A stretch of DNA of 34,095 nt from positions 1-34,095 of the forward strand of contig NZ_AYKG01000031.1 in NCBI RefSeq assembly GCF_003788585.1, given 5' to 3'. The translations under genes and the position numbers were made by a program. The notes beneath the pieces are model-generated. The model was given only the letters and a program-made list of their open reading frames with translations. It had not been told where the DNA came from and searched no databases. Shown here one piece after another: positions 13,762 through 31,283 of the stretch (positions within the stretch are counted from its first letter, which is position 1; every line of letters starts with the position of its first letter). The DNA is from Salinisphaera japonica YTM-1 (GTDB lineage Bacteria > Pseudomonadota > Gammaproteobacteria > Nevskiales > Salinisphaeraceae).

Positions 13762-15216
13762 ATGAAAAATTCGCTCGATATCGCCACCGATACCCTGCTG
13801 GGGCCTGCCGCCATCGACGCGGCCCAGCTCGAGGCCACCCTGTCCGGGCTGATGCAGCCGGGCGTGGATTATGCCGATCTGTACTTTCAGATCTTTCGTA
13901 ACGAATCCTGGCTGTTGGAAGACAGCGTGGTGCGCAGCGCCGGGGCTTCGACGTCCAAGGGCGTCGGCGTGCGCGTACTGGCCGGCGAGCAGACCGGCTT
14001 TGCCTATGCCGACGAGCTGGCCCTGCCCGCGCTCACCCAGGCCTCGCAGGCCGCGCGTGCCATCGCCCGTGACGGCACGACCGCCTCGATGAACGCGCTC
14101 ACCCGGCGTGATTGCGGCCCAGCCACGCGCTATGCCCCGATCGACCCGGCCGATTCAATGGCCGCCGAGGCCAAGGTCGCGCTCTTGCACCACGCCGACA
14201 CGATCGCTCGCGATGCCGACCCTCGGGTGGTGCGCGTGACCGTGTCGCTGGCCGGCAGCGCCGACACCATGCTCGTCGCGGCCTCCGACGGCACGCTTTG
14301 TGGCGACGTGCGCCCCATGGCGCGATTCAATGTTTCTGTCCAGGTCGAGGAAAACGGGCGCCGCGAATCCGGTAGCGCCGGCGGCGGCGGGCGCCTGTCC
14401 TACGAGATCTATACCGGCGACAACGATCTCGTGGCCCAGTACGCCCGCGAAGCCGTGCGGCGTGCCGTCGTGCGCCTGAAAGCCGAAAACGCCCCGGCCG
14501 GCTCGATGCCGGTGGTGCTGGGCAACGGCTGGTCGGGCGTGCTCCTGCACGAAGCCGTAGGCCACGGTCTGGAAGGCGACTTCAACCGCCGCGGGGCTTC
14601 CAACTTCTCCGGCAAGATCGGCCAGAAAGTGGCCTCCGAGCTATGCACGGTGGTCGACGACGGCACGCTTGATGGGCGGCGCGGCTCCTTGGCCGTGGAC
14701 GATGAAGGCACGCCGGCGGCCTGCAACACGCTGATCGAAAACGGCGTGCTCAAAGGCTATATGCAAGACAAGCACAACGCGCATCTGATGGGCGTGGCCC
14801 CTACCGGCAACGCCCGGCGTGAGTCCTATGCCCATACCGTCATGCCGCGCATGACCAATACCTACCTGCGCCCCGGCGAGAGTGACCCGGCCGATATCAT
14901 CGCCTCGGTCGATGACGGGATCTATGCCGCCAACTTCGGGGGCGGCTCGGTCGATATCACCTCGGGCAATTTCGTGTTCACCGTGGACGAGGCCTATCGC
15001 ATCGAAAACGGCCAACTCGGTGCCCCGCTCAAAGGCGTGACCCTGATCGGCAACGGGCCGGACGTCATGGGCCGGGTCTCGATGATCGGCAACGACTGGG
15101 CGCTGGACGCCGGCGTGGGCACCTGTGGCAAGAACGGCCAGAGCGTGCCGGTGGGCGTGGGCCAACCCAGCCTGCGGGTGGATGCCATCACCGTCGGCGG
15201 CACCGAGGCGAGCTGA
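13762..15216 (+). CDS. tldD: TldD metalloprotease subunit
   Basis: TldD is the catalytic subunit of the TldD/TldE (PmbA) zinc protease that degrades unfolded peptides and matures some ribosomal peptides such as microcin B17. The 484-residue length is typical. The zinc site is the HExxxH motif HEAVGHGLEGD (His263, Glu264, His268), with the conserved C-terminal CGKNGQSVPVG providing the third ligand. The glycine-rich block NFGGGSVDITSGNFVF is also diagnostic. The partner pmbA is not in the window. In Gluconobacter, which lacks pqqF, TldD has been linked to PQQ production, which matters here because a PQQ cluster without pqqF lies 9 kb away. No strong Shine-Dalgarno precedes the ATG. Confidence 0.96.
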   Translation: MKNSLDIATDTLLGPAAIDAAQLEATLSGLMQPGVDYADLYFQIFRNESWLLEDSVVRSAGASTSKGVGVRVLAGEQTGFAYADELALPALTQASQAARAIARDGTTASMNALTRRDCGPATRYAPIDPADSMAAEAKVALLHHADTIARDADPRVVRVTVSLAGSADTMLVAASDGTLCGDVRPMARFNVSVQVEENGRRESGSAGGGGRLSYEIYTGDNDLVAQYAREAVRRAVVRLKAENAPAGSMPVVLGNGWSGVLLHEAVGHGLEGDFNRRGASNFSGKIGQKVASELCTVVDDGTLDGRRGSLAVDDEGTPAACNTLIENGVLKGYMQDKHNAHLMGVAPTGNARRESYAHTVMPRMTNTYLRPGESDPADIIASVDDGIYAANFGGGSVDITSGNFVFTVDEAYRIENGQLGAPLKGVTLIGNGPDVMGRVSMIGNDWALDAGVGTCGKNGQSVPVGVGQPSLRVDAITVGGTEAS

Positions 15217-23071: not shown

Positions 23072-23164
23072 ATGACACCCCGTGATTTTCCCGATCTGGC
23101 GGTGGCCCCGGCCGAGCTACCGGTCACGCACGAGCCAGCCGAAACAACACCGGTGGCCGGCTGA
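23072..23164 (+). CDS. Possible 30-residue ORF coupled to the DMT exporter
   Basis: ATG 23072 opens 30 codons, Pro-, Ala- and Glu-rich, ending at TGA 23162-23164, whose last base is the first base of the exporter ATG. GAGG at 23060-23063 stands 8 bases before the ATG, a fair ribosome binding site, whereas the exporter's own start depends on the overlap. The peptide is acidic and soluble, with no signal or membrane segment, and resembles nothing I know. It could be a real small protein, or a leader whose translation gates the exporter. Confidence 0.45.
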   Translation: MTPRDFPDLAVAPAELPVTHEPAETTPVAG

Positions 23165-24054
23165 TGACCGTTGATCTGCGTCCCCACGGCTCCAATACCC
23201 GTTTATTGGCATTGAGTCTTCTGGTGGTCGTGATGTGGGGCATCACGGCCTGGCTCCGACAGATCGCGGCCAGTCTCTCGCCGCTGGAGCTGACCGGCTT
23301 CGCGATGCTGGCCTCGGCGCTGTGTAGTCGGTTACTGCCACACACGCGGGGCACGGCGTGCCGGGCGCCGGCACGCCACCCCTGGTATGCGTGGCTGTTC
23401 GTGTCCGGCGGGCTCGTTGGCGGGGCCGGTTTTTATTTCGCCGCCCTCGAATACGCGCCCGCTGCCCAAGTGGTGGTCATCACCTATACCTGGCCCCTGC
23501 TGTTTGCGCTGGCAAGCGATGTCTATAACCGTCGGCGTCCGTCGGTCATCACGTTTTTCAGCCTGTTACTTGGCCTGGGCGGGGTCGTGGTCATCAACGG
23601 GGGCATGACATTACCCAGCGGTTCCGCCTGGCTCGGCTACGGCGGCGGTTTGCTGGCCGGCCTGTCGTGGGTGGCTTATTCGCTGTTCCTGCAAGTGTAT
23701 GAGCGCCCGATCCGACGAGATTTCCCGATGTTTTTCGCTGCCGGTGGCGCGCTGGCCTTGGCCGGCCAGCTCGTTCTCACCGGTGAGCTGAGCCTGCCCG
23801 GCGACTGGCAAGCCTACGCCGCCGCGGCACTGCTGGGGCTTGGCCCGTACGGACTGGGCTTCGTCGCGTGGGGCCATGTCGTGCGAAACGGTAACCCGCG
23901 CATCATTCCGGTCCTGCCGTACGGTGTACCGGCAATCGCGGCCATAACGCTCGTTATTGCCGGCAGCACTGAGCCGTCGCTGTCGCTGTTCGCCGGCTGC
24001 GCATTGGCCGCTGGCGCCTGCCTGGGGGTTTTCGCGCAGCCAGACTCAGCGTGA
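23164..24054 (+). CDS. DMT-superfamily (EamA) exporter
   Basis: A 296-residue inner membrane protein with about ten hydrophobic helices arranged as two EamA repeats, the drug/metabolite transporter fold. The blocks VVVMWGITAWLRQIAASLSP at the start of repeat one and YAPAAQVVVITYTWPLLFAL near its end are family-typical. The layout recalls the aromatic amino acid exporter YddG, but substrate specificity cannot be read from sequence. Its ATG overlaps the stop of the 30-residue ORF. It is divergent from lysR and followed by a 7-bp GC hairpin (24072-24088, arms CAACCGA and TCGGTTG) with no T-tract. Confidence 0.9.
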   Translation: MTVDLRPHGSNTRLLALSLLVVVMWGITAWLRQIAASLSPLELTGFAMLASALCSRLLPHTRGTACRAPARHPWYAWLFVSGGLVGGAGFYFAALEYAPAAQVVVITYTWPLLFALASDVYNRRRPSVITFFSLLLGLGGVVVINGGMTLPSGSAWLGYGGGLLAGLSWVAYSLFLQVYERPIRRDFPMFFAAGGALALAGQLVLTGELSLPGDWQAYAAAALLGLGPYGLGFVAWGHVVRNGNPRIIPVLPYGVPAIAAITLVIAGSTEPSLSLFAGCALAAGACLGVFAQPDSA

Positions 24055-24282: not shown

Positions 24283-24360
24283 ATGAAACAATGGACGCAA
24301 CCGAAGGCTCATGACCTGCGCCTGGGCTTTGAGATCACGATGTACGTCAGCAACAAATAA
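24283..24360 (+). CDS. pqqA: PQQ precursor peptide PqqA
   Basis: A 25-residue peptide that is the ribosomal precursor of pyrroloquinoline quinone. The conserved Glu and Tyr that become the PQQ backbone are Glu17 and Tyr21 in the motif FEITMYVSNK, with the exact E-x3-Y spacing. The N-terminus with KQWTQPKAHDLRLG is the leader recognised by PqqD and PqqE. A GAGGAG site seven bases upstream supports the start. It is followed at once by a stem (24361-24374) and then an intrinsic terminator before pqqE, so pqqA is probably transcribed in excess over pqqE. Confidence 0.97.
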   Translation: MKQWTQPKAHDLRLGFEITMYVSNK

Positions 24361-24460: not shown

Positions 24461-25621
24461 ATGACACAGCCGCTTCGACACGACGCACAGACGATCGCAC
24501 GCCCGCTCTGGCTGCTGGCCGAGCTGACTTATGCCTGTCCGTTGCAGTGCCCGTATTGCAGCAACCCCACCGAGATGGCCCAGATCGGCGCCGAGATGAC
24601 GACCGATGACTGGTTCAAGGTGCTGCGCGAGGCCCGCGAGTTGGGTGCGGCCCAGTTGGGGCTGTCTGGCGGCGAGCCGTTGGTCCGTCGGGATCTCGAG
24701 GCGATCGTGGCCGAGGGCGCGCGGCTGGGTTATTATAGCAACCTCATCACCTCGGGCATCGGCATGGACGAGGCCCGTGTCAACGCGCTGGCCGAGGCCG
24801 GGCTGGATCATATCCAGATCAGTTTTCAGGCCAGTAACGCCGAGCGCAATAATTTTCTGGCCGGCTCGAACACCTTCGAGCAGAAGAAAGCCATGGCCCG
24901 TGCGATCAAGGCCGCGGGCTATCCGATGGTGCTCAATATCGTGCTGCACCGGCACAATATCGATGATATCGACGACATCATCGCCATGGCCGAGTCGCTG
25001 GATGCAGACTACGTTGAGCTGGCCAATACGCAGTATTACGGCTGGGCCTGGCACAACCGCGCCCAGCTTCTGCCGACCCGCGAGCAGCTCAACCACGCAG
25101 AAAGCGTGACCACGCGCTATCGCGACAACGGCGGGCGCATGAAGCTGTATTTCGTCGTGCCCGATTATTATCAGGACCGGCCAAAGGCCTGTATGAGCGG
25201 CTGGGGCGACTTATTCCTGAACGTGGCCCCGGACGGCCTGGCCCTGCCCTGTCATGCCGCGCGCCAGCTGCCTGGCATCGAGTTTCCTGATGTGCGCGAG
25301 CACGACATCGCCTGGATCTGGAACGAATCACCGGCGTTTAATCATTTTCGGGGTTTCGACTGGATGGCCGAGCCGTGTCGCTCATGCGTGGAAAAACATG
25401 ACGACTTCGGCGGCTGTCGTTGCCAGGCTTTCATGCTTACCGGCGATATGTATGCCACCGATCCGGTCTGTGCCAAGTCGCCGTCGCACCACTTGATCAC
25501 GGATGTGGTGGCCGAGGCCAACGCGCCGACTTCAGCACGCGCCGAGGCCCAGCCGATCGTGTTCCGCAACCCGAAGAACTCGAAGCGGCTACACGCCACC
25601 CCGCCCGCAGGCGAGCGCTAG
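24461..25621 (+). CDS. pqqE: PqqA peptide cyclase (radical SAM)
   Basis: PqqE is the radical SAM enzyme that crosslinks the Glu and Tyr side chains of PqqA. The 386-residue protein has the iron-sulfur motif CPLQCPYC (Cys26, Cys30, Cys33) after WLLAELTYA, and a SPASM domain with [19 protein letters not shown] and [19 protein letters not shown] holding the auxiliary clusters. LSGGEPLVR is the family's GGEP block. ATG 24461 is chosen over TTG 24443 because the extra six residues are not family-like. It follows pqqA by 100 bp across a terminator and converges on pqqD; the stop codons of the two genes are the same palindromic CTAG (25618-25621). Confidence 0.97.
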
Positions 25622-25899
25622 CCGATCACCACCCATCCGTGGGAGATAGCCAGGCGCAGGAACTCGTACACGTCGTCGCTTACATCGGCGCCGCCGAACT
25701 CGGCTGAAATCAGCTCACACACCGTGGCCACCGAGCGCTGGCCATCGCAGCGCGTGAGTATTTCGGTCGCCGGCTCGTTGAGCGTGACCATGCCCTCGGG
25801 ATAGAGCAAAACATGACAATCCTGGGCCGGCTCGTATTGCAGCCGATGGCCGCGGGCGATACGCGCCACGCTAGTGGCATGAATCACGGGCCGGCTCAT
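25618..25899 (-). CDS. pqqD: PqqA-binding chaperone PqqD
   Basis: PqqD is a RiPP recognition element that holds PqqA and presents it to PqqE. The 93-residue protein has [39 protein letters not shown] and a C-terminal [15 protein letters not shown], matching the family's length and pattern. The ATG at 25897-25899 overlaps the pqqC stop (ATGA), which decides the start. It is the last gene of the minus-strand M48-pqqB-pqqC-pqqD operon. Its stop shares CTAG with pqqE on the other strand. Confidence 0.95.
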
Positions 25900-26657
25900 T
25901 CGGCCACCTCGGGCACCGCCGGGCAGCCATGATACGGCGGGCGGTCTTCGACATAGGCCATCCACATCGCATCCAGCATCGTCCAGAGCACGTCGAGCTT
26001 GAACTGCAGAATCTCCAGCGCGCGTTCCTGATCGGCGCGGGTGACGAAATGATCGAGCGTGACCGTCAGCCCGTGGGCAACATCGCGGCGTGCTTCCGAC
26101 AGGCGCTTGCGGAAATACGTCAGGCCCGAATCATTGATCCACGGATAATGATCCGGCCAGCCGGTCAGGCGCTGCTGATGGATTTCCGGGGCGAACAGCT
26201 CGGTCAGCGAGGAACAAGCGGCTTCTTGCCAGCTCGCCCGCCGGGCGAAGTTCACGTAGGCATCCACGGCAAACCGCACGCCGGGCAGTACATCGGCCTC
26301 GGCCGCCACGCGGGTGCGATCCATGCCACAGGCCTCGGCCAGGGCCAGCCAGGCCTCGATGCCGCCGGGATCATCGCCCACGCCGTCGTGATCCAGAATC
26401 CGCTGCACCCAGAGCCGGCGCGTGGCCGGGTCCGGGCAGTTGGCCAATACGTTGGCGTCCTTGATCGGAATCGAGACCTGATAATGATAGCGATTGGCCA
26501 CCCAGCCGCGGATCTGCTCGCGCGTGGCCCGGCCCTCGTGCATCAGGCGATGATACGGGTGATGGATATGATAGCGCGCGCCCAGCGCCCGCAGCTTGGC
26601 CTCGAAGACATCGCGCGGCCAGGCATTACCTTGCACAGCGTCGTGGGTCTGGCTCAT
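25896..26657 (-). CDS. pqqC: Pyrroloquinoline-quinone synthase PqqC
   Basis: PqqC is the cofactorless oxidase that closes the ring and performs the last eight-electron oxidation to PQQ. The 253-residue, mostly helical protein shows the family blocks [14 protein letters not shown] near the N-terminus, [20 protein letters not shown] and [18 protein letters not shown] in the middle, and [14 protein letters not shown]. The active-site histidine, tyrosine and arginine positions within these blocks look intact. Both ends overlap its neighbours by ATGA quartets (pqqB before, pqqD after), so the three are translated as a coupled set. Confidence 0.97.
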
Positions 26658-27568
26658 GGGCGAATCTCCATGCCGTCGTAGGCGACTTCCACGCCGGCGG
26701 CCGCGACCGTGGCGCGCTCGGGCGAGTCCGGGTCGAGGATCGGGTTGGTGTTGTTGATATGGATCAGGATACGGCGCTTGTCGGCAAAACGGGCCAACTT
26801 GGCCAGCATGCCGCGCTCGCCGGACTGCGGCAGGTGGCCCATCGAGGCCGCGGTTTTCGTGCCCACGCCCTGGTCGATCATCTCGGTTTCGGTGAAGAAC
26901 GTGCCGTCGACCAGCAGCGTGTCACAGCCGGCCATCAAGCCAGCCAGCGCCTCATCGACCGCGCCAAGACCCGGCGCGTAGAACACCCGATGCCCGGTGT
27001 GCTCATCGATGATCACCAGGCCGATATTGTCGCCCGGGTGCGGGTCGGCCCGGTGCGGCGAATACGGCGGTGCCGCCGAGGATAGCGCCACCGCGATGAA
27101 ACGCACGCCCGGCAGGTTGGCGATCGTGAACGTGTTGTCGCCGTCGGGCACGATTTCCTGCCAGCGCACGCCACAGAAATGATCCAGCACGTTCAAAAGC
27201 GGCAGGCCGGTCGTCAGGTCTTCGTGGACCTGGCGCGTGCAATACACGTTGAGCGGCGCGCCCTCGCGCATGAGCGTAAGGCCCGTGGTGTGATCGATCT
27301 GGCTGTCCATCAACAGGATGGCCTCGATGCCGGTGCCCCGCTCACCCGGCGTGGCACGCAGGGCCGGCGTTTCCAGGATCTGCTGGCGGATATCCGGCGA
27401 GGCATTGATCAACAGCCACCGGTCGTTATCACCGCGCACCGCAATCGATGACTGCGTGCGTGCCACGGCGGCCGTGGTGCCTTCGTGCAGGGCGCGGTTG
27501 AGCCCCACGTTGCTGTTCCATTGCGGAAACCCGCCGCCGGCGGCCGATCCCAGAACACGTATTTGCAT
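26654..27568 (-). CDS. pqqB: PQQ biosynthesis hydroxylase PqqB
   Basis: PqqB belongs to the metallo-beta-lactamase fold and is proposed to hydroxylate the tyrosine of the crosslinked Glu-Tyr intermediate. The 304-residue protein begins with the family signature [18 protein letters not shown] and has [22 protein letters not shown] and [14 protein letters not shown]. It starts 39 bp after the M48 peptidase gene on the same strand and overlaps pqqC, so all four are probably one transcript. Length is typical. Confidence 0.97.
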
Positions 27569-27607
27569 AAGCGGATTCGCTGGTTTTGAAAACAGATGCC
27601 GAGCGGC

Positions 27608-28732
27608 TTAGCTTACCCGCCCGCGCAATCGATCGAGCCGGGCGCGGTCGGCCGGGTGCGTGGCATTGAACACGCGATACCACGGATGCAAACCAGCCCG
27701 GTTCGGGTTGATCGAGAACAGATCAGCCAGCGTATCCGCCAACCGGTGGCTGCCCACATGGCCGGCGGCAAAGGCATCGGCCGCGAACTCACACCCACGC
27801 CGATACCCGTTGAGCGCGGGCCGCACGACCCAGGCGGCTGGCCCGATCGTGACATAGATCAGCCACAGGACCACGGGCGCCGACACTTCAGGGGGTGCGG
27901 CTATCAAACCACTGGCCACCAGAACGATATAGATCGCCACGAGCCCGGCCCGCATCGCATCGAAGCGCGTGAGATGGCCCAGGCAGGCATGGCCGAATTC
28001 ATGGGCCACCACGGCCAGGATGGCCGAAGACGACAACCGATCGACCAGGCCTTGTGTCAACACGATCTGCCCGCCGCGCCCACGGGCCTCGACGCGCGCA
28101 CCGACCTGTGCGGACAGCGGCGACTGATCGGCGACGGTGATCGTGCAACGTGGCCGCCCACAGGCCTCGGCCAGCCCGCGCAAACGCTTGCGCAAGCCCG
28201 AATCCGTCAACGCCGCGCCGGCCATCGCACCCGGCTGGCTCACGCTGCGATAGACCCGCCGAGCCCCCGCCAATATCAACCAGCCGATGGCCCAAAGCCA
28301 CGGCATGAATACGTCGGGCAAAATGAGCGCCACACACCAGAGCGCCAGGCCCAACAGCAACGGCAAGAAGAACTGGCGCGCCTGAGCGCCAAGCGCTGCG
28401 AGCCTGTTTTGCGCTTGGCGGCCAGTGGACCAAAACGCGCGCAGGACTTGATCGCCGACGACCGCCAGGGCCAGGCACAACGCCACAAGACCGGGGCCAA
28501 GCGTGCCGGACAACAATCCAGCGCCCCAAGCAAACACGAGCGCCAACAGCGCAAGTGCCGTCTCACGACCCTGACCGGCCAGGCGCTGGCTGGCGCGTCG
28601 CTCGCCCTCGGCGTGGGCCGCCGGATCCGGGGCAGCCGCCGCCAGATAACGACGCTGCAAGACATACAACCCCGCATCGACGATCACGCCGAGCACAAGC
28701 CAGCCGCCAAGCAGCCATAGAACGACGCTCAT
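27608..28732 (-). CDS. Membrane M48-family (Ste24-like) zinc peptidase
   Basis: A 374-residue integral membrane peptidase. Hydrophobic helices lie near residues 2-24, 58-78, 80-98, 122-157 and 262-302. The gluzincin motif HEFGH is at 244-248, and the third ligand is in CEFAADAFA (Glu315), with the M48 C-terminal signature NATHPADRARLDRLR. M48 enzymes cut peptides or CAAX-like substrates at the membrane. It is first in the operon followed by pqqB, pqqC and pqqD, and no M16-type pqqF gene is visible. It is therefore a candidate for trimming crosslinked PqqA; this is inference from position. A plain membrane quality-control protease is the alternative. The upstream terminator at 28848-28878 separates it from the PQQ dehydrogenase gene, so it needs its own promoter. 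Confidence 0.9.
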   Translation of the reverse strand: MSVVLWLLGGWLVLGVIVDAGLYVLQRRYLAAAAPDPAAHAEGERRASQRLAGQGRETALALLALVFAWGAGLLSGTLGPGLVALCLALAVVGDQVLRAFWSTGRQAQNRLAALGAQARQFFLPLLLGLALWCVALILPDVFMPWLWAIGWLILAGARRVYRSVSQPGAMAGAALTDSGLRKRLRGLAEACGRPRCTITVADQSPLSAQVGARVEARGRGGQIVLTQGLVDRLSSSAILAVVAHEFGHACLGHLTRFDAMRAGLVAIYIVLVASGLIAAPPEVSAPVVLWLIYVTIGPAAWVVRPALNGYRRGCEFAADAFAAGHVGSHRLADTLADLFSINPNRAGLHPWYRVFNATHPADRARLDRLRGRVS

Positions 28733-28847
28733 CGTCGGGCCAGTGGCCCGGCGCCCGCGACGGCTCGGCCTGTCATTCGCGCGCGAAAGTGATTCATGCC
28801 AATAAGTTTAAACGGCCGAGGCGCCCGCATCGAAACGTCGGCCATAA

Positions 28848-28878
28848 AAAAGACGAGCCGATCATCGACTCGTCTTTT
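28848..28878 (-). terminator. Intrinsic terminator of the PQQ dehydrogenase gene
   Basis: AAAAGACGAG at 28848-28857 and CTCGTCTTTT at 28869-28878 form a perfect 10-bp stem with an 11-base loop. On the minus strand it ends in TTTTTTAT, 25 bp after the dehydrogenase stop. The plus strand has a shorter T-run, so it may work weakly both ways. Confidence 0.85.
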
Positions 28879-28902
28879 CTGCCAGCCGGCTGACGTACCG
28901 AT

Positions 28903-30921
28903 TTAGTCCTCCGGCAAGGCGTACACCACGATCTGATCGCCCACCTGGTCTTTCAGAATCGTGTTGCCGCCCGATACAAAAGCCACATACTCACGGCCCT
29001 CGTATTCATAAACCGACGGATTAGCCACCACGGGCGCCATGGCCTGATCCGACCAGAGCTCGTCACCGCTTTCCAAGCTGAACGCCCGCACCTTGGAATC
29101 CATCGACGCGCCGATGAATATCACGCCACCGGCGGTCACCGCTGGCCCGCCGATCGTCGGCGAGCCCCAGGCTTCGGGCATGATGAAGCCAAACTGCTGC
29201 GACGCGCCCATCGGGCGGCGCCATTTCACGTCACCCGTGTGCATGTCGATGGCCACCAGCTCACCAAACGGCGGCTGCCAGCACGGCATGCCCAGCCAGT
29301 TGCGGGCCACTTCCAGGCGCATGCCATAGGGCGAGCCGGCCTGGGGTGAAAAGCCGGCCTCGTTGCCCGAGGTCTTGTCGGCGGCCTCGTAGGCTTCGCG
29401 GTCATAGAGCTTGATGGTCTGCACGATGCGCGAGGTGTTCACGATCGCCGTCTGGCTGGCCGGGTCATAGGCCACGCCGCCCCACTGCACCGCACCCGCG
29501 CTATCGGGAAAGGCCATTGTCCCCTCGCCTTTCGTGGTCGGCGGGGTGTACATGCCGCGATAGTCGAGGTTATTCCACAGGCGCGTGCACGACCCGCCGC
29601 CGACGATATCGGCCAGCTTCCAGACATCCGGCTTTTTGGACTGGTCGAGCAGCGGGGCCGGCTTGGTCGGGAACGGCTGGGTGGGCGAGAGCTGTTCGCC
29701 GGCCACTGAGCCATCGCCGCCCGGCACCGGGCGTTCCTCGATCGGCCAGATATCTTCACCGGTCTTGCGGTTGACCGCGAACAGAAAGCCCATCTTCGTG
29801 GCCTGCAACAGCGCCGGGATGGTTTTACCGTCAACGGTGATATCCATCAACGTTGGCGCGGCCACCGTGTCGTAATCCCACACATCGTGATGCACCCACT
29901 GGCGCGACCAGGCGACCTTGCCCGTCTCCACGTCGACCGCGGTGGTGGATGTCGCCAGTGGGATCGACTCGGTGCGATTGCCACCCCAGTAGTTTGGCGA
30001 GGGCGACGACACCGGCAGATAGACCAGGCCCAGCTCTGCATCGGCCGACATATGGGTCCAGACGTTGGCCGTGCCCGACTTGGCCCGTACATCATCCGGC
30101 AGCGCCTGGAACGTCCACTCGCGCTCGCCCGTGCGGGCATTGATCGACCATACCGTGCCCGGCGGTGCCTGCTTGTAGGCCCAATCCTTGCCGGCCCAGC
30201 CGAGAATCAGATGATCACCCACCACCGTTGGTGGCTGCAGCAGCGACAACGGATATTTGTCGTGTGTTTTGTTCCACTGGTTCACGTCGAGCACGCCGTT
30301 ATCGGCGAAACTTTCACACGTCTTGCCGGTATCGGCATCCAGCGCGAACAGCTTGGCATCGACCGTGCCCATGTAGACCACTTTCTGGCAGGCCTGGCCC
30401 GGCACCGGGTCCTCGGCCTGCCAATACGCCACGCCGCGGTTCTTCAAGACCGGCTGGGTCAGCGCTTTCTTCGGGGCATGGGTATCGAACACCCATTTCC
30501 TCTCGCCCGTGCCCGGATCAATGGCAAACAAGCGCCCGAACGGCGTGCCAACGAACAGCGTGTCGTTGGCAAACACCGGCGTGGAGGACCACACCGTGGC
30601 CGGCACGTCCCCGCTACCGTCGGACAGATCGCCGGTATGGATCGACCAGACTTTTTCCAGCTCGCCGACGTTGTCCGCCGTGATCTGTGTCAGCGGGCTG
30701 TACTTCTGCGCGCTGAGCTGGCCGTGGAACGAATCCCAGATCGGCTGGCGCGGGTTGGCGATGCCGTTGGCCGCGTTGGCCGCCGGACCGGCCGGCGAGC
30801 TTTGATCATCAACCCCGGGCGCATCCTGGGCGAACACTGGAGCCGCCGCGGCGCTCAAACCCACCACGGCCGCTACCCGGGCTAGGCCCGACAAGCGATA
30901 GTTCAAAAAACGATACAACAT
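28903..30921 (-). CDS. PQQ-dependent dehydrogenase (glucose/quinate type)
   Basis: A periplasmic quinoprotein of about 672 residues in the membrane-type glucose/quinate/shikimate dehydrogenase family. A signal sequence ends near APVFA-QD (residue 31). The eight-bladed propeller follows with PATVWSSTPVFANDTLFVGTP, YMGTVDAKLFALDADTGKTC and, at about residue 350, WVHHDVWDYD carrying the catalytic-type Asp, then LLQATKMGFLFAVNR with the active-site Lys. No CxxCH haem motif exists, so electrons should go to ubiquinone. Classical mGDH has five membrane helices fused at the N-terminus; here they are missing and a four-helix protein is encoded 2 bp upstream. ATG 30921 is chosen because it gives a clean signal peptide. 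Substrate is undetermined. Confidence 0.93.
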   Translation of the reverse strand: MLYRFLNYRLSGLARVAAVVGLSAAAAPVFAQDAPGVDDQSSPAGPAANAANGIANPRQPIWDSFHGQLSAQKYSPLTQITADNVGELEKVWSIHTGDLSDGSGDVPATVWSSTPVFANDTLFVGTPFGRLFAIDPGTGERKWVFDTHAPKKALTQPVLKNRGVAYWQAEDPVPGQACQKVVYMGTVDAKLFALDADTGKTCESFADNGVLDVNQWNKTHDKYPLSLLQPPTVVGDHLILGWAGKDWAYKQAPPGTVWSINARTGEREWTFQALPDDVRAKSGTANVWTHMSADAELGLVYLPVSSPSPNYWGGNRTESIPLATSTTAVDVETGKVAWSRQWVHHDVWDYDTVAAPTLMDITVDGKTIPALLQATKMGFLFAVNRKTGEDIWPIEERPVPGGDGSVAGEQLSPTQPFPTKPAPLLDQSKKPDVWKLADIVGGGSCTRLWNNLDYRGMYTPPTTKGEGTMAFPDSAGAVQWGGVAYDPASQTAIVNTSRIVQTIKLYDREAYEAADKTSGNEAGFSPQAGSPYGMRLEVARNWLGMPCWQPPFGELVAIDMHTGDVKWRRPMGASQQFGFIMPEAWGSPTIGGPAVTAGGVIFIGASMDSKVRAFSLESGDELWSDQAMAPVVANPSVYEYEGREYVAFVSGGNTILKDQVGDQIVVYALPED

Positions 30922-30923
30922 GA

Positions 30924-31283
30924 TCAAACGCGTCCTTCGGCGCCAGCCGATCCGAAACAGTCGATGACAAGGCCCACCACGCCTATAAGCATGCCCAGGC
31001 ATAGCCACCATTCATGCAATAGCGCCCCGGCGAACGCGTTGCCCACAAGACCCACAAGAATGACGCAGCGCCAGGCAACGCGCGCCCCGCGACTGCCGGC
31101 GCGGGCCAGTGCAAGGCCGAACACGATGAGCACAACGCTTACCACGATCGTAAGCAATGCGCCCAGCGTGGCGTTCACGCCGGTCAGCGGTGCGAAGTAC
31201 CCATAAAGCGCTGCCACCAGGCTCATGATCGTGCCGATGAACAACACGATCACGCCCGGTCTGGCGGCCGAAGGCTTTGACAT
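30924..31283 (-). CDS. Four-helix membrane protein, putative anchor of the PQQ dehydrogenase
   Basis: A 119-residue protein with four predicted membrane helices (about residues 10-30, 40-61, 69-90 and 93-112), a short basic loop between helices 2 and 3, and a Trp-rich HEWWLCLGML in the last turn. It resembles the N-terminal membrane domain that is fused to the propeller in ordinary membrane glucose dehydrogenase. AGGGAG eight bases upstream fixes ATG 31283. Only 2 bp separate its stop from the dehydrogenase ATG, so the two are co-translated and probably form one quinone-reducing complex. Homology to the mGDH domain is inferred from size, topology and position, not from a motif. Confidence 0.8.
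   Translation of the reverse strand: MSKPSAARPGVIVLFIGTIMSLVAALYGYFAPLTGVNATLGALLTIVVSVVLIVFGLALARAGSRGARVAWRCVILVGLVGNAFAGALLHEWWLCLGMLIGVVGLVIDCFGSAGAEGRV

Follow-up and report, generated by a model that had tools for sequence, protein, structure and literature searches.

The window analysed here is a stretch of 34,095 nucleotides from Salinisphaera japonica YTM-1 (NZ_AYKG01000031.1), which makes up the entirety of contig G000:C31 in a genome of 3.26 Mb, named G000 hereafter. This gammaproteobacterium of the order Nevskiales and the family Salinisphaeraceae encodes in this window genes for the synthesis of pyrroloquinoline quinone (PQQ), together with a membrane peptidase of family M48 whose gene is located directly before pqqB. 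From sequence comparison, this peptidase is assigned to a PQQ-linked branch of Ste24-like proteases, and it is considered here as a candidate for the enzyme that processes the precursor peptide PqqA. The features of the locus are the following:

27608–28732, minus strand: M48 membrane peptidase, Ste24/ZMPSTE24-like, 374 amino acids from an ATG start (PF01435 at 72.8 bits, fold, residue mapping)
26654–27568, minus strand: pqqB, 304 amino acids (TIGR02108, 396 bits)
25896–26657, minus strand: pqqC, 253 amino acids (TIGR02111, 368 bits)
25618–25899, minus strand: pqqD, 93 amino acids from the ATG at 25899 (gene call; PF05402 and TIGR03859, both scanned from a GTG at 25965)
24461–25621, plus strand: pqqE, radical SAM/SPASM protein (gene call; TIGR02109, 543 bits for the open reading frame from 24443)
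24283–24360, plus strand: pqqA, 25-residue precursor with an E-x3-Y pair (sequence, pattern scan)
28846–28880, no strand assigned: terminator-like hairpin between the quinoprotein gene and the M48 gene
28903–30921, minus strand: PQQ-dependent dehydrogenase, nearest to TIGR03074 (glucose/quinate/shikimate; 523 of 833 bits; PF01011, 624.6 bits; start from the gene call)
13762–15216, plus strand: TldD metallopeptidase, a rival candidate for PqqA processing (PF19289, PF19290, PF01523)

The sequence-only reading had placed an M48 peptidase with an intact HEFGH motif first in a pqqB-pqqC-pqqD unit, 39 bp before pqqB, and these observations hold. The 39 bp run from the end of the M48 gene to the start of pqqB at 27568, both on the minus strand, and 4-bp overlaps join pqqB to pqqC and pqqC to pqqD (taken from the ATG at 25899). 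The genes pqqA and pqqE are found on the plus strand, with pqqE convergent with pqqD and their ends overlapping by 4 bp. PqqB, PqqC and PqqE exceed their NCBIfam cut-offs, and PqqD exceeds that of TIGR03859. The hairpin (−21.4 kcal/mol, z −6.3, equalled by none of 200 shuffles) was missed by a scan with a loop limit of 8. Because it separates the M48 gene from the upstream quinoprotein gene, the former probably heads its own transcription unit, in which it would be co-transcribed with pqqBCD. A consensus scan revealed no sigma-70-like promoter for this unit.

The window M48 holds HEFGH at residues 244–248. Six residues (H244, E245, H248, E315, H359 and R365) are invariant across 14 aligned rows, and their aligned counterparts in ZMPSTE24 are residues 335, 336, 339, 415, 459 and 465, which we take to be zinc-binding and active-site positions. 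The likeness to Ste24p and ZMPSTE24 (MEROPS M48A) comprises the HExxH motif, the distal Glu and the equivalents of H459 and R465, and extends to the predicted fold. A profile of 14 members, compared with the PDB, finds Ste24p at 1.3e-51 and ZMPSTE24 at 3e-47 to 1e-45, with HtpX and BepA far behind. An AlphaFold2 model built from 15 rows (mean predicted local distance difference test score of 77.6, weak between about residues 71 and 170) retrieves with Foldseek nothing but Ste24/ZMPSTE24 at E ≤ 0.001 (12 matches). Structural Z scores to these proteins are 21.4–23.1 over 352–366 residues (23.1 to 4aw6 and 22.9 to 4il3), while the next family reaches 8.2. Unlike Ste24p and ZMPSTE24, the window protein is bacterial and encoded before pqqB, and CAAX substrates are not expected for it. 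A Pfam scan found in it no match to PF16491, the five-helix N-terminal domain of CAAX prenyl proteases, which is matched by its relatives G029 and G011 from the same order and by the two alphaproteobacterial proteins described below (L056 and a plasmid protein). As this domain is unrecognised, the protein is designated Ste24-like rather than a strict Ste24/M48A member. HtpX (M48B) is also an M48 membrane peptidase, but identity with it or with LoiP was rejected, the matches being weak and far below cut-offs: the HtpX models of NCBIfam yield about 20 bits for cut-offs of 245 (20.0 bits) and 341. Ratios of nonsynonymous to synonymous substitution (dN/dS) of 0.32, 0.31 and 0.41 against G010, G008 and G013, respectively, indicate purifying selection on the M48 gene.

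The distribution of this peptidase was studied in 85 genomes of the order, of which 39 carry a pqqB over the cut-off and 46 do not. A strong M48, defined by E < 1e-25 to the M48 profile (a threshold set after the list was seen), is present in 23 of the 85 genomes, all of them pqqB-positive (23/39) and none pqqB-less (0/46). Just under this threshold are G042 (1.8e-20), which has no pqqB over the cut-off, and a second match in G045 (6.2e-19). Within the family, an M48 relative is found in 11 of 17 genomes, a set identical to the 11 with pqqB, and the second M48 match of the pqqB-bearing family genomes lies on a contig other than that of pqqB in 10 of 10 cases.

Both genes share a contig in 18 of the 23 M48 genomes, always within 39 kb, and are placed on different contigs in the other five (G006, G036, G041, G044 and G045). 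The adjacency to pqqB noticed in the window recurs in three other genomes, which belong to the genus of G000: the gap of 39 bp in G000 becomes 19 bp in G008, 40 bp in G010 and a 4-bp overlap in G013. Immediate neighbours vary by lineage and the linkage to PQQ genes is retained, with TIGR03866, TIGR03863, TIGR04558, a TonB-type receptor and a quinoprotein alcohol dehydrogenase (ADH) near the M48 in many genomes. Neighbour labels (histidine kinase, response regulator, drug/metabolite transporter and others) were given by eye unless a representative had been scanned with Pfam or NCBIfam. The gene caller used is a simple one that overlooks some genes or puts them on the wrong strand (such as the M48 of G013 and of G081), and absences from neighbourhoods are based on this caller, on tblastn of chosen proteins in part of the stretches and on the places of TIGR02110 matches.

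A maximum-likelihood tree of 62 rows splits the M48s of the order (all 23) and two M48s from alphaproteobacterial cassettes, with support 100/98, from 37 other Ste24-like proteins, an uneven sample of 26 proteins taken from among the best-scoring matches in the class and 11 from a scan of relatives' contigs. A first tree, computed without the plasmid row, had already joined the 23 order members with L056 at 100/99. That first tree placed the M48 of G042 outside the PQQ branch, on an end branch of 4.76, and the second omits it. One or two gains may account for the M48 loci of the order.

Beyond the order, two members of the PQQ-linked branch were found, and both are encoded in pqqADE cassettes. 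These are located on an Acidibrevibacterium plasmid and on contig L056 of an alphaproteobacterial metagenome-assembled genome, where the M48 gene closes a run with the order pqqA-pqqD-pqqE-urate-oxidase-N protein-class V aminotransferase-dihydroorotate-dehydrogenase-like protein-M48. On the Methylovirgula plasmid pHY1, a third cassette comprises genes one to six of this run:

L311:13231–18492: pqqADE cassette of the Acidibrevibacterium plasmid, with M48
L056:1428–6711: pqqADE cassette of the metagenome-assembled genome, with M48
L312:11611–15555: pqqADE cassette of plasmid pHY1, first six genes

Pfam supports the families of the cassettes, although the urate-oxidase-N protein of L056 is under its cut-off (20.8 of 26.9 bits), and the PqqA peptides of all three share the ending GFEVTAYVYVR. 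PqqB, PqqC and two quinoprotein queries gave no tblastn match in the stretches of cassette DNA fetched, and PqqA, PqqD and PqqE are therefore the partners common to all M48 loci. The cassette possibly encodes a different peptide-derived cofactor pathway. When a Nevskia-type M48 was compared with plasmids, three records were obtained, the cassette plasmid being one of them. Among the 80 loci kept from a contig scan of 91 relatives, pqq genes flank at least L055 and L056; in the same set, L109 shows a match to the pqqE query at 24% identity. In the stretches shown of the Thiodictyon and Paraburkholderia plasmid pqqBCDE loci, no M48 or M16 is annotated, the plasmid gene table being incomplete. 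Near the pHY1 cassette, annotation places cbpA/cbpB, another radical-SAM modified-peptide pair (L312:8194–9773).

Some further observations concern the neighbours of the window operon. The match of the dehydrogenase at 28903–30921 to TIGR03074 begins no earlier than model position 113, and a small hydrophobic open reading frame without Pfam match (30924–31253, minus strand) precedes it; the two together (28903–31253) possibly represent a split membrane-bound glucose/quinate dehydrogenase. An EamA-type transporter is encoded upstream of pqqA (23164–24054). Another one directly follows the M48 gene in G029 with a 4-bp overlap (L192:9925–10776). Both transporters are hardly alike, and a role in PQQ export is a conceivable question.

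The peptidases known for the same step are the M16 enzymes PqqF and PqqG. They share with the window M48 the condition of zinc peptidases encoded at a pqq locus and proposed for the same step, but they hold HxxEH instead of the HExxH of the membrane M48, and the two families are unrelated; the window M48 is a PF01435 protein and not an M16/TIGR02110 one. In Pseudomonas, PqqF is sufficient without PqqG, according to the excerpted text of PMC12997753, while Acinetobacter requires only four genes for PQQ in the part of PMC2294125 that treats this point. The former paper, a review of the ped cluster, makes no mention of "M48", and no link between M48/Ste24 proteases and PQQ was found in the open-licence literature, judged partly by titles.

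Canonical PqqF (TIGR02110) over the cut-off is found in none of the 85 genomes of the order. M16 proteins of 826–862 residues with HxxEH are nevertheless encoded beside pqqB in four pqqB genomes without a strong M48 (G024, G025, G026 and G055), and they are probably PqqF-like enzymes. In these genomes the M16 gene stands third in a run that diverges from pqqB, after two genes that by eye resemble those of a histidine kinase and a response regulator; the Pfam scan of this run covered G024. The G024 protein (L209:12367–14955) scores 57 of 320 bits with TIGR02110, far under the cut-off. A pattern scan detected pqqA in 8 of the 23 M48 genomes and in one of the four M16 genomes, whose lone peptide resembles the others. 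The expectation that M48 occurs where a pqqB-side M16 is missing agrees with these data: in none of the 39 pqqB genomes were both found, some of the stretches being short.

Taken together, these data give a probability of about one half to the reading that the M48 is a protease dedicated to PQQ, most simply the PqqA protease. According to this model, a Glu-Tyr crosslink would first be made in PqqA by PqqE/PqqD. The peptide would then pass from the cytosol into the membrane chamber of the M48 and be cleaved there at the presumed cut sites, and the crosslinked unit so freed would go on to PqqB and PqqC, the M48 thus standing in for M16 PqqF. Ste24 proteases enclose such a chamber within the membrane, and by analogy it is plausible that a protease of this kind accepts a 25-residue cytosolic peptide.

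Several observations weigh against this reading. Regarding linkage, the M48 gene is located 7–39 kb from pqqB in 14 of the 23 genomes, mostly among PQQ alcohol-dehydrogenase genes, with direct precedence over pqqB confined to G000, G008, G010 and G013. The occurrence counts take no account of the relatedness of the genomes, and because few evolutionary events are involved (on a pqqB tree of the 39 genomes, computed with a quick method, M48 requires two changes, M16 one and TIGR03863 four), the split between M48 and M16 is weak as independent evidence. In the M48 tree, long branches may join the PQQ rows falsely, and the bootstrap had not settled. In the protein itself, Gly211 takes the position of ZMPSTE24 N265, presumably a functional residue, and the dN/dS of the gene exceeds that of pqqB (0.07, 0.10 and 0.17 against G010, G008 and G013) roughly two- to fivefold, which describes a constrained but faster-changing protein. 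No M48 was found within the 25 kb fetched for the pHY1 cassette.

The record of other peptidases also counts against the reading. Canonical PqqF exceeds the cut-off in one of 369 genomes of a class sample and in one of its 53 pqqB-positive ones; missing in the other 52, its absence here is therefore ordinary. The statement that no M16 is visible stands for the window, but elsewhere the genome encodes one, its only TIGR02110 match, a protein of 933 residues that reaches 74 of 320 bits with the PqqF model and whose N-terminus resembles by eye a signal peptide. Relatives that lack pqqB also encode M16 proteins comparable to it in size and score. Neither M48 nor M16 was found beside pqqB in 12 of the 39 pqqB genomes, ten of them with a divergent pqqB (37–43% identical to that of the window) and two, G020 and G054, with pqqB contigs under 10 kb; another enzyme must therefore serve there. 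The claim that the M48 is the PqqA protease is thus partly supported, being favoured by the recurring adjacency and the lack of M48/M16 co-occurrence, and tempered by the few events, the usual absence of PqqF, the M16 of another kind in the genome and the TldD encoded in the window.

In the wider class, a Ste24-like M48 at E ≤ 1e-20 is present in 168 of the 369 genomes, in 35 of the 53 with pqqB versus 133 of the 316 others (hand count). Outside the order, 32 pqqB genomes carry one, and places are listed for 31 (all but G331). M48 and pqqB lie on different contigs in 28 of these 31 and on one contig in three, about 28 kb apart in G426, about 163 kb in G190 and over 3 Mb in G219, so that only 1 of 31 is within 40 kb of pqqB; the contrast with the 18 of 18 in the order leans on few same-contig cases, many assemblies being fragmented. 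These class figures, in which Ste24-like M48s are common without pqqB, likewise count against the proposal and do not support a general class-wide link between M48 and PQQ. The link is claimed solely for the order and the two alphaproteobacterial cassettes.

The alternative that survives best, unlikely as it appears, involves TldD/TldE, which has a general peptide-processing role and belongs to a family unrelated to M48. Here PqqA would be cut by TldD/TldE, as has been suggested for Gluconobacter, leaving the M48 another task in the PQQ system, such as clearing leader or linker peptides or uncrosslinked PqqA. The presence of tldD in the window, unmentioned in the sequence-only reading, makes it a real competitor. 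In Gluconobacter, TldD/TldE is the proposed alternative metallopeptidase for PqqA without pqqF: G. oxydans with a disrupted tldD excreted no detectable PQQ, as cited in a passage of PMC4869267, and in an excerpt of PMC8602642 bioleaching fell by 92% in the tldD mutant and by 63% in the tldE mutant. A general TldD, however, leaves unexplained both the restriction of the M48 to pqqB genomes of the order and its presence in pqqADE cassettes of another class.

It is also rather improbable that the M48 serves PQQ-dependent alcohol or glucose oxidation, maturing or quality-controlling a membrane protein or regulator of quinoprotein dehydrogenases, and that it reached pqqB by rearrangement of the cluster. 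The alcohol-dehydrogenase ABC marker TIGR03863 is strong (E < 1e-80) in 17 genomes, 9 of them over the cut-off, and all 17 carry the M48, which is often near quinoprotein ADH, TonB-type receptor, relay or ABC genes; in the window, a quinoprotein gene is the next one upstream. Nevertheless, 6 of the 23 M48 genomes have no TIGR03863 match (G000, G008, G010, G013, G045 and G056; completeness is 87% for G008, 81% for G010 and 86% for G045), and in the first four of these the M48 gene precedes pqqBCD. Moreover, G047 and G048 hold quinoprotein ADH and relay genes near pqqB, yet no strong M48, and the cassette stretches fetched lack matches to both quinoprotein queries. That the protein is an ordinary Ste24-like housekeeping protease, hitch-hiking near pqq by common descent of one gene block, is very improbable: such M48s are widespread in the class and the order's loci may trace to one or two gains, but the branch is separate, strong matches are absent from the pqqB-less genomes of the order, and the linkage to PQQ persists among differing neighbours and in cassettes of another class.

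Genomes without canonical PqqF pose the question of which peptidase frees the crosslinked Glu-Tyr unit from PqqA, and the PQQ-linked branch of Ste24-like proteases provides a concrete gene and enzyme candidate for this cleavage. More tentatively, Ste24-like membrane-chamber proteases might constitute a third independent class of PqqA proteases beside M16 PqqF and TldD/E, one that would serve both the PQQ operons of the order and an alphaproteobacterial pqqA-pqqD-pqqE pathway in which an aminotransferase, a dihydroorotate-dehydrogenase-like flavoprotein and a urate-oxidase-N membrane protein replace pqqB/pqqC. ZMPSTE24 is a prelamin-processing protease; if the proposal is true, this type of protease enters cofactor synthesis. 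The pqqADE-M48 cassette, for its part, suggests that a PQQ-like product might be made with neither PqqB nor PqqC.

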